Source: Thauera phenylacetica B4P (lineage in GTDB: Bacteria; Pseudomonadota; Gammaproteobacteria; Burkholderiales; Rhodocyclaceae). Taken from it: 41,017 bases of DNA. Both the position numbers and the translations under genes were made by a program. Positions 4,990-7,109 of the stretch are shown in pieces. Position 1 is the first letter of the stretch, and each line of letters opens with the position of its first letter. The notes below the pieces were generated by a model. It worked only from the letters and a program-made list of their open reading frames with translations. It had not been told where the DNA came from and did no database searches. Location: NCBI RefSeq assembly GCF_000310225.1, contig NZ_AMXF01000015.1, forward strand, positions 1 through 41,017. The letters run 5' to 3'.

Positions 4990-5193
4990 TCAGCCGCCAC
5001 CGACGGCGACGACGATCTCGAGGCGGTCGCCGTCGGCGAGTTTGACTTCGGCGTGGCGGGCCTTGGGCACGATCTCGCCGTTGCGCTCGACCGCGAGGCG
5101 CTTGCCGACGAGGCCGCGCGCCTCGAGCAGGGCAAGCACCGAGAGATCGGGCTGCAGCGATTCGGGCTGGCCGTTGAGGATGACCTGGATCAT
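4990..5193 (-). CDS. thiS: Sulfur carrier protein ThiS
   Basis: A 67-residue ubiquitin-fold protein that carries sulfur as a C-terminal thiocarboxylate to ThiG for thiazole formation. The sequence begins [13 protein letters not shown], contains the [17 protein letters not shown] segment usual in ThiS, and ends VVAVGGG. The terminal Gly-Gly required for adenylation and thiocarboxylation is therefore present, preceded by one additional Gly. It is divergent from metX across a 187-base gap and leads a probable thiS-thiG-trmB group on the minus strand. The length is typical of the family. Confidence 0.95.
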
Positions 5194-5240
5194 GGCGTTC
5201 GGGGCTGTGCAGGAGCCGAAAATCTTATCATGCCGGCCGT

Positions 5241-5269
5241 TTGACTTTTCCCTTCCTGGGCGCTAACTT
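5241..5269 (+). promoter_or_regulatory. Predicted sigma-70 promoter of metX
   Basis: TTGACT (5241-5246) and TAACTT (5264-5269) are separated by exactly 17 bases, a good match to the -35/-10 consensus. Transcription would begin near 5275-5277, just before the first stem of the riboswitch at 5280. That spacing supports both calls. Confidence 0.65.
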
Positions 5270-5275
5270 CCAGCC

Positions 5276-5331
5276 ACCTAGCGCCGATTTGATCAACAGC
5301 TTGCGGGCGCTCAACAAATACGGCTAAAGCG
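5276..5331 (+). promoter_or_regulatory. SAM-II (SAM-alpha) riboswitch candidate upstream of metX
   Basis: The leader has the layout of the compact SAM-II pseudoknot. Stem P1 is AGCGCC (5280-5285) pairing with GGCGCT (5306-5311). Its loop starts with GATTT and ends with CTTGC. The 3' tail CAACAAATACGGCTAAAG carries the conserved A-rich linker and GCTAAA, which pairs back into the loop. Order, spacing and invariant-looking segments match SAM-II RNAs I know from alphaproteobacterial met genes. SAM binding should reduce metX expression. The call is from memory of the consensus, not a covariance-model search. Confidence 0.75.
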
Positions 5332-5336
5332 AGGGC

Positions 5337-5370
5337 ACCCAGTCCGCGTTTCTAGCCGGCTGGGTTTTTT
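5337..5370 (+). terminator. Intrinsic terminator (attenuator) between riboswitch and metX start
   Basis: ACCCAG (5337-5342) pairs with CTGGGT (5360-5365), extended inward by CCG (5344-5346) with CGG (5357-5359). The stem is followed by a run of six T (5365-5370). It lies directly after the SAM-II candidate and only ten bases before the likely start codon, so it is best read as an attenuator rather than the end of another transcript. The segment TAGCCG (5353-5358) can instead pair with CGGCTA (5321-5326) of the riboswitch, a possible antiterminator. Confidence 0.7.
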
Positions 5371-5380
5371 GTTTTTCCAG

Positions 5381-6517
5381 ATGACCAAAATGATCGCACC
5401 CCAATCGGTCGGCGTGGTCGTGCCGCAGCGGGCCGAGTTCACCACGCCGCTCGCGCTGCGCAGCGGCGGCACGCTGGACCACTACCACCTGGTCTATGAG
5501 ACCTACGGCACGCTCAACGCCGATCGCAGCAACGCGGTGCTGGTATGCCACGCGCTGTCGGGTTCGCACCACGTCGCCGGCACCTACGCCGACGCGCCGC
5601 ACAACGTGGGCTGGTGGGACAACCTCATCGGCCCGGGCAAGCCGCTCGATACGCGCAAGTTCTTCGTGATCGGGGTGAACAACCTCGGCGGCTGCTACGG
5701 CTCCTCCGGCCCCAACCAGATCAACCCCGCCACCGGCAAGCTGTGGGGCGCGGACTTCCCCTTCGTCACCGTGGAAGACTGGGTTGAATCCCAGGCGCGC
5801 CTGGCCGACCAGCTCGGCATCCGGCGCTTCGCCGCGGTGGTGGGCGGCTCGCTCGGCGGCATGCAGGCGATGTCGTGGGCGCTGCAATATCCCGAGCGCG
5901 TCGGCCACGTCGCGGTGATCGCCGCCGCGCCCAAGCTCACCGCGCAGAACATCGCCTTCAACGAGGTCGCCCGCCAGGCCATCCTCACCGACCCCGAGTT
6001 CCACGGCGGCCACTACTACGCGCACGGCGTGGTGCCGGCGCGCGGCCTCAAGCTGGCGCGCATGGTCGGGCACATCACCTACCTGTCCGACGACTCGATG
6101 GCGGAGAAATTCGGCCGCAGCCTGCGCCACGGCCGCAACACCTACAGCTACGACGTCGAGTTCGAGATCGAGTCCTACCTGCGCTACCAGGGCGACAAGT
6201 TCGCCGGCTACTTCGACGCCAACACCTACCTGCTGACCACCAAGGCGCTCGACTACTTCGACCCCGCCTTCGAGTACGGCGGCCACCTGCCCGCCGCGCT
6301 CGCCCGCGCCACCGCCGACTTCCTGGTGGTGTCCTTCACCACCGACTGGCGCTTCTCGCCAGAGCGTTCGCGCGAGATCGTCTACGCCCTGCTGCACAAC
6401 CGCCGCAACGTCAGCTACGCCGAGATCGACTGCCCGGCCGGCCACGACTCCTTCCTGCTCGACGAGCCGCGCTACCACAAGCTTCTGTCGGCCTGGTTCG
6501 ACCGCATCGAGGTGTGA
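5381..6517 (+). CDS. metX: Homoserine O-acyltransferase MetX
   Basis: A 378-residue alpha/beta-hydrolase-fold enzyme that acylates homoserine (acetyl- or succinyl-CoA donor) as the first committed step of methionine synthesis. The catalytic triad is visible: S157 in [12 protein letters not shown]322 in [11 protein letters not shown] and H355 in [36 protein letters not shown] and [12 protein letters not shown] are family landmarks. The start is uncertain: ATG 5381 is preferred, but TTG 5369 and ATG 5390 are in frame and none has a clear Shine-Dalgarno sequence. One base separates the stop from metW. Donor specificity cannot be decided here; many proteobacterial MetX enzymes paired with MetW use succinyl-CoA. 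Confidence 0.95.
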
Positions 6518-6518
6518 G

Positions 6519-7109
6519 ATGACTGCCTACCGCTACGACTATGAAGTGATCACGCAGTGGATCGAGCCCGGCGAGAAGGTGCTCGACCTCGGCTGCGGCG
6601 ACGGCGAGCTGCTGCGCCACCTGATGGACGTGCGCCAGGTGCAGGGCTACGGCGTCGAGAACGACCCGGACAAGCTGCTCGGCAGCGTCAACAACGGCGT
6701 CAACGTGATCCAGATGGACCTCGAGAAGGGCCTTGTCGGCCTCGAGGACGGCTTCTTCGACCACGTCATCATGAGCCTGTCGCTGCAGGCCATGCACAAC
6801 ACCCAGGGCATCCTGCACGAGATGCTGCGCGTGGGCCGCGAGGCCGTGGTGAGCTTCCCCAACTTCGGCTACTGGCGCCACCGCCAGAGCATCCTCAACG
6901 GCCGCATGCCGGTGTCGGAGAGCCTGCCGCACCAGTGGTTCAACACCCCCAACGTGCGCTTCTTCACCATCGCCGACTTCGACGCGCTGTGCGAGCTGAA
7001 CGGCATCGCGGTGCGCGAGCGCCTCGCCTTCGACGAGGGCAAGCTGATGCTGGACGAGCCGAACTTCCTCGCCAGCGTGGCGGTGTACAGGCTGGGACGC
7101 AACGGCTGA
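6519..7109 (+). CDS. metW: MetW, methyltransferase-fold partner of MetX
   Basis: A 196-residue protein with a SAM-dependent methyltransferase fold. The binding-loop motif is KVLDLGCGDGELLRHL (about residues 19-34), then YGVENDPDKL, and the FPNFGYWRHRQSIL segment that marks MetW. It starts one base after the metX stop, so the two are almost certainly co-translated. MetW is reported to be needed for full MetX function in some proteobacteria, and no methyl acceptor is established. The riboswitch and attenuator upstream of metX would control both genes. Confidence 0.93.
   Translation: MTAYRYDYEVITQWIEPGEKVLDLGCGDGELLRHLMDVRQVQGYGVENDPDKLLGSVNNGVNVIQMDLEKGLVGLEDGFFDHVIMSLSLQAMHNTQGILHEMLRVGREAVVSFPNFGYWRHRQSILNGRMPVSESLPHQWFNTPNVRFFTIADFDALCELNGIAVRERLAFDEGKLMLDEPNFLASVAVYRLGRNG

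Follow-up and report, generated by a model that had tools for sequence, protein, structure and literature searches.

The SAM-II riboswitch (Rfam RF00521) was described by Corbino et al. in 2005 as the metA element (PMC1273637). In the portions of that paper available to us, it is made up of a P1 helix, a P2 pseudoknot and a GATTTG / CTTGC / GCTAAA core, with a promoter close upstream, a terminator downstream in many representatives and methionine genes as neighbors; Bordetella bronchiseptica is named in the alignment legend. The extension of P2 is 5 bp in 60% of SAM-II, according to the sections consulted of a later study, and the crystallized metX SAM-II has a two-pair extension (PMC6061858). 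Two further names concern similar places in the genome. Leyn et al. reported in 2014 an RNA element, metXZ, before metXW or metZ in betaproteobacteria, with a pseudoknot, an alternative helix and a terminator (PMC4239095). In the text consulted, metXZ is not called SAM-II, and SAM_alpha is reported only in Rhizobiales and Rhodobacterales. The Rfam family RF02424 (Bp2_287, "Burkholderia sRNA") comes from the work of Khoo et al. in 2012, in which methionine neighbors were noted and a cis-acting element was proposed, SAM-II being unnamed in the text consulted (PMC3521395). As stated in the accessible part of a 2022 study on Sinorhizobium meliloti, how SAM-II affects gene expression had not been investigated until then; its metZ SAM-II, with a predicted terminator and a small RNA, RZ, that rises at high SAM, provides a precedent (PMC9373788).

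We analyzed the metXW leader in the window, i.e., the whole stretch of 41,017 nucleotides from Thauera phenylacetica B4P. In our reading, to which we assign a probability of roughly 0.87, it is a SAM-II-type riboswitch acting as a transcription attenuator of metXW. A preliminary description of this DNA had regarded a betaproteobacterial SAM-II with a terminator as new, but such elements are already in print, as far as the consulted parts of three papers go (PMC1273637, PMC2258182, PMC4239095). The leader is thus of an ordinary, known kind, and the useful part of the present work lies in joining three labels and in correcting the occurrence of SAM-II.

Anatomy and conservation of the metXW leader

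The leader, of about 105 bases, sits between the divergent thiS and metX-metW (Table 1). MetX of the window and MetX of Thauera aminoaromatica share 97% identity. The promoter with a 17-base spacer claimed in the preliminary description is present, and its -35 element recurs: among 74 metX leaders, 73 have TTGAC no more than 60 bases before the aptamer. TANNTT follows exactly 17 bases after TTGAC in 46 of these 73, and a further 19 have CTAATC, CTACTC or TTAATC at -10, i.e., a one-base shift. The attenuator claim also held, with a terminator and its T run in the window and a terminator in 74 of the 75 core-bearing metX leaders, window included; the one exception is L087, in which the T run is interrupted. 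The metX ATG at 5381 lies ten bases past the T run, as had been claimed, although the 3' arm had been placed slightly too far upstream. A generic promoter and terminator scan of the leader reported neither this promoter nor the terminator at 5337-5365, the latter because the scan allows loops of up to 8 bases and the loop here has 13. Between the terminator and the metX ATG (5366-5380), the sequence is T-rich, with no visible Shine-Dalgarno-like sequence, and the nearest Thauera loci are similar in this respect.

Table 1. Features of the metXW leader and its flanking genes (positions in the window)
Feature	Position	Strand	Basis or remark
thiS	4990-5193	-	divergent from metX
-35 hexamer TTGACT	5241-5246	+	sequence
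-10 hexamer TAACTT	5264-5269	+	sequence; 17-base spacer from -35
Predicted transcription start	near 5276	+	from promoter position
SAM-II-type aptamer (52 bases)	5280-5331	+	RF00521 match and R1 match
P1 5' strand AGCGCC	5280-5285	+	pairing kept in 57 aligned leaders
L1 GATTTG	5286-5291	+	invariant in 57/57 leaders
P2 5' strand GCTTGC	5299-5304	+	invariant in 57/57 leaders
P1 3' strand GGCGCT	5306-5311	+	pairing kept in 57 aligned leaders
Antiterminator 5' strand CGGCTAAAGCG	5321-5331	+	minimum-energy fold; duplex with terminator loop
P2 3' strand GCTAAAGC	5323-5330	+	common to aptamer and antiterminator
Terminator 5' arm ACCCAGTC	5337-5344	+	pairing kept in leaders
Antiterminator 3' strand CGTTTCTAGCCG	5347-5358	+	minimum-energy fold; nearly all within terminator loop
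Terminator 3' arm GGCTGGGT	5358-5365	+	followed by T run to 5370
metX, homoserine O-succinyl/acetyltransferase	5381-6517	+	NCBIfam NF047916, 672.8 bits (cut-off 560)
metW	6519-7109	+	TIGR02081, 239.6 bits (cut-off 189.5)

In 74 of 80 named loci, the 230 bases ahead of metX contain the aptamer core, a recurrence that, judging by these sequences, is beyond chance. The six metX loci with no recognizable aptamer in that interval (L092, L093, L095, L102, L103 and L112) are all metagenome assembled. For the analysis of pairing, we aligned 57 distinct metX leaders, leaving out L087, whose T run was unrecognized, L107, which has an insertion, and duplicates. All six P1 pairs form in the window, and across the alignment 99.7% of P1 cells are paired; the loss of P1 pairing that the preliminary description had named as a refutation was not seen. 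Two-sided changes occur in 9 P1 cells, all in the outer pair, compared with a mean of 1.1 in shuffled alignments, none of 500 of which reached 9. The terminator is paired in 96.6% of cells, with two-sided changes in 4 of 8 pairs, a number reached by 1 of 500 shuffles; as the sequences are related, these shuffle counts are not probabilities. GATTTG, GCTTGC and GCTAAAG are invariant in all 57 leaders, the first of which we take to be the third strand of the SAM pocket in SAM-II, and the P2 strings UUGC and GC(U)AA are present in 57/57. Five of the six P2 pairs never vary and the sixth fails in one leader, so P2 is too invariant to lend covariation support. In the metX leader L107, a long hairpin insertion separates the 3' strands of P1 and P2, and the core strings are intact.

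The same element precedes metZ and metH in other loci. The MetZ label is based on an O-succinylhomoserine sulfhydrylase profile (717 bits, cut-off 522), and the MetH label on the N-terminal part of methionine synthase, which scored below the whole-protein cut-off because the end of the locus cuts the gene.

Relation to SAM-II, metXZ and RF02424

RF00521 matched the plus strand at 5271-5344 with 26.1 bits (E = 3.3e-4 over 241 bases and 1.6e-3 over the genome). The covariance model thus found the proposed SAM-II-type aptamer in its place before metXW, but under the gathering score of 36. The orthologous metX leader L008, whose MetX is 81% identical, reached 41.7 bits and is among the matches above the cut-off in 15 of 101 genomes; only such matches were used in that search, since E <= 1 was too loose, with matches in 7 of 14 control genomes. 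We then derived a model, R1, from the metX aptamers of this group, 41 distinct sequences in all. R1 matched, at the same place, all 30 loci that RF00521 had yielded in 150 genomes of the phylum (27 of these loci belong to other classes), with E-values from 1.6e-21 to 0.71, 29 of which were below 0.01. The window aptamer scores 80.6 bits with R1, whose building sequences include the window. By these comparisons, the SAM-II homology of the metX leader aptamer is reciprocal, from RF00521 to R1 and back. Together, the score of L008, the matching of RF00521 loci by R1 and the invariant core suggest that the low RF00521 score of the window reflects the limit of the cut-off and not a lack of kinship. 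A search for a second aptamer copy in the same genome found none: the next-best RF00521 match had E = 6.9, and R1 gave a single match at E <= 0.001.

The window leader shares with SAM-II P1, the P2 pseudoknot, the core strings, the close promoter, the terminator and the methionine genes as described in the available text of Corbino et al. (PMC1273637), with metX followed by metW downstream. It differs by its score below the cut-off and by P2, which has only 2 pairs beyond the UU/AA step in the window, the usual long SAM-II extension being absent. The extension has 2 pairs in 43 of 65 distinct betaproteobacterial leaders; among 18 distinct loci of other classes, 12 have at least 5 pairs (5 or 6), or 12 of 17 without L175. 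The loci labeled alpha in this work are recorded as belonging to the same phylum only and are presumably alphaproteobacterial. A two-pair extension is also a trait of SAM-V in the consulted part of its description (PMC6061858). SAM-V is translational, whereas the likely output of the window leader is its terminator. No SAM-V match was obtained at E <= 10 within 5180-5420, where the sole Rfam matches were RF00521 and RF02424.

The window leader has the place, the genes and the pairings of metXZ as given in the accessible text of Leyn et al. (PMC4239095), whose described features were found here, and it is very probably this orphan element. The pairing of 'region 5 with regions 1 and 2' in that text fits GCCGATTTG (5283-5291) with CAAATaCGGC (5315-5324), if we read the region names correctly, and region 3, which is given without a partner there, would be the P2 5' strand (PMC4239095). 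Each pair of this alternative helix is kept in at least 46 of the 57 aligned leaders. RF02424 appears to be the same DNA element upstream of metZ or metX, modeled on the opposite strand. Its match on the window is weak and on the minus strand (5285-5357, 15.2 bits). We examined 12 loci (L215-L226) out of 38 RF02424 matches in 300 genomes, and all 12 have the aptamer on the opposite strand, with a partial match in L217. As aligned to the three matches above the cut-off, the family begins with bases complementary to a terminator and T run. Two of these three have a MetZ-like protein after the aptamer, on its strand, and none was found for L215. The sequences indicate that RF02424 is the betaproteobacterial SAM-II leader read on the wrong strand.

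At E <= 0.001, R1, whose E-values are rough, predicts the aptamer for 225 of 300 genomes of Burkholderiales, spread over 109 of 135 genera. In 300 genomes drawn in the same way, RF00521 found 136 at E <= 0.001 and 51 above the cut-off. Among 28 strong R1 loci (29 were taken, and L207, unmatched, was left out), metZ lies downstream in 13, metX in 6, metH in 1 and metW in 1, 21 in total; the other 7 have none of these four genes. Betaproteobacteria seem rather likely to own a SAM-II subtype, a view that we hold with some reserve. It would be defined by a two-pair P2 extension, GCUAAAGCG as a common switching strand and a complement in the terminator loop; it would occur in about three-quarters of the sampled Burkholderiales genomes, be mostly missed at the Rfam cut-off and carry three unlinked labels, RF00521, metXZ and, on the wrong strand, RF02424. 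In the open-access texts searched, with subscription papers and supplements outside the search, no paper links metXZ or RF02424 with SAM-II. As far as this search shows, the assignment of metXZ to SAM-II, the strand error of RF02424 and the count of 225 genomes in 300 are new. The orphan metXZ element would gain a probable ligand and mechanism, a curated small-RNA family would become a riboswitch leader on the wrong strand, and the Rfam cut-off would undercount SAM-II in Burkholderiales. With its clear predicted switch, the 105-base unit may be a convenient template for SAM-II expression studies.

Competing folds and the proposed switch

The preliminary description had pointed to the complementarity of CGGCTA and TAGCCG. 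Both are present in the window, where they turned out to be the outer part of a longer antiterminator: in the minimum-energy fold, they belong to a helix of 11 pairs, with a further helix of 4 pairs inside it. The 5' strand of this antiterminator includes the P2 3' strand, and its 3' strand lies in the terminator loop. We imposed the aptamer on the folds by forcing P1 and withholding the P2 strands. The probability of the window terminator rose from 0.11 to 0.92 upon this constraint, and that of the antiterminator was 0.87 without it, which supports the proposed competition between aptamer and antiterminator for the P2 3' strand. Fewer than 1% of shuffles equal the duplex of the antiterminator with the terminator loop. 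Given its composition, the free fold of the leader as a whole is unremarkable (z = -1.12).

We extended the fold tests to 100 distinct leaders out of 112 with a terminator, requiring at least 5 P1 pairs. Imposing the aptamer moved the terminator probability from below to above 0.5 in 28 of them (26 of 66 for metX leaders alone); in the remaining 72, the terminator was favored already without the aptamer, and these may switch kinetically. When transcripts were truncated ahead of most of the terminator 3' arm, taking the best of six cut points, the antiterminator had a mean pair probability of at least 0.4 in 85 of 100 leaders (median, 0.69) and of 0.98 in the window. Leaders with shuffled loops, 20 per leader, gave an average of 0.40 under the same treatment, so part of this signal is unspecific; in 62 of 100 leaders, at most 10% of the 20 shuffles did as well as the real loop. 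The antiterminator is unconvincing in Zoogloea L061, where a fraction of 0.35 of loop shuffles did as well, and in Tepidiphilus L098, where all did.

The terminator loop carries a complement of the P2 strand at a shuffle fraction of at most 0.05 in 42 of 80 distinct leaders, versus 1 of 80 when a control strand from the same leaders is used. Among 11 strictly chosen leaders whose loops have no 6-mer in common, 4 reach 0.05 and none does with the control strand. The cognate loop is hardly better than those of other leaders (-11.1 versus -10.5 kcal/mol). The exact CGGCTA/TAGCCG pair did not persist in relatives, being kept in only 9 of 75 metX leaders; CGGCT/AGCCG occurs in 40 and CGGC/GCCG in 64. 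Covariation of the antiterminator pairing, proposed in the preliminary description as a check on this pair, was sought in the aligned leaders and not seen; the CGGCTA strand, belonging to the aptamer as well, has little freedom to vary. The principle of a loop-borne complement is conserved better than any particular pairing. We rejected the idea that this topology is peculiar to betaproteobacteria, as it occurs in other classes too: among 82 betaproteobacterial leaders, 71 have most of the partner in the loop or 3' arm, and of 20 distinct loci of other classes, 11 have it there and 7 mostly in the 5' arm. The script found no terminator in two more loci from other classes, and both this count and the P2 count left out L174-L177, three of which come from the same order or class and one of which, L175, belongs to another class but has a beta-looking motif; L175 was restored in the P2 count of 18.

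From these features we infer SAM as the ligand, the direction of control, its timing during transcription and an exclusion by geometry. RNA polymerase would start near 5276, and the first part transcribed would be the 52-base aptamer. Once SAM is bound, P1 would form together with the P2 pseudoknot, locking GCUAAAGC in P2, and the terminator at 5337-5365 would form and turn metX off. Without SAM, P2, with its two pairs past the UU/AA step, would open, and the freed CGGCUAAAGCG would pair with its complement in the terminator loop (5347-5358). Antiterminator and terminator helices together would make an over-tight pseudoknot; the terminator would be blocked and metXW transcribed.

The aptamer might instead bind another ligand, or SAM too weakly, the short P2 reflecting that ligand. 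The two-pair extension of most betaproteobacterial leaders, against at least 5 pairs in most loci of other classes, and the score below the Rfam cut-off would fit this reading. The crystallized metX SAM-II shares the two-pair extension, however, in the consulted text (PMC6061858). The three core strings are also invariant in 57/57 leaders, and methionine genes prevail downstream: they follow 21 of the 28 strong R1 matches, and metX, metW, metZ or metH follows 40 of 72 motif matches in 56 loci, the rest having been compared with these four only. The core was present in 39 of those 40. The remaining 32 matches, of which many are tandem copies preceding small ORFs, were excluded from counts, and L169 was unmatched by the motif. 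We therefore regard a different ligand as improbable.

Nearly as improbable, if marginally less so, is a constitutive terminator that merely tones down metX or releases a small RNA, next to an aptamer with no control. It would account for the 72 leaders in which the terminator is favored without the aptamer, and a homologue of RF02424 is listed among expressed small RNAs in the part consulted of one study (PMC10987360). Against it, imposing the aptamer flips the window terminator (0.11 to 0.92), and 42 leaders of 80 have a complement of the P2 strand in the terminator loop, versus 1 for the control strand. As the terminator precedes an amino acid biosynthesis gene, we also considered leader-peptide attenuation through methionine codons and rejected it as barely conceivable after an ATG scan of 74 metX leaders. 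No ATG is present from the P1 start to the terminator end in 65 of them, and the other 9 have no methionine-run frame before a stop (ATG starts only), save one MM-stop. Riboswitch attenuation remains our preferred reading of the leader.

Tandem and variant aptamers in other genomes

Tandem SAM-II has been described before, as the accessible text of one paper indicates (PMC9481103). Other loci of the genus Thauera (L005 1510-1925, L011, L013, L014, L015, L016, L151 and L152) have a SAM-II aptamer and terminator followed by a variant aptamer, GGCATTAACGACAACTTGC...GGCTAAAGCG; this tandem cassette is absent from the present genome. Where recovered (L005, L015, L016 and L151), a 55-residue ORF comes after the variant aptamer, and the one that was scanned had no Pfam match. 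L012, L023 and L141 have tandem SAM-II leaders before small ORFs starting with MFDC or MYDC, the second copy of L023 being partly seen; the first 90 residues of these ORFs gave no Pfam match. Tandem aptamers were also seen in L132 (451-620), L221 and L222, the second with no obvious terminator, and the pair in L132 precedes metZ.
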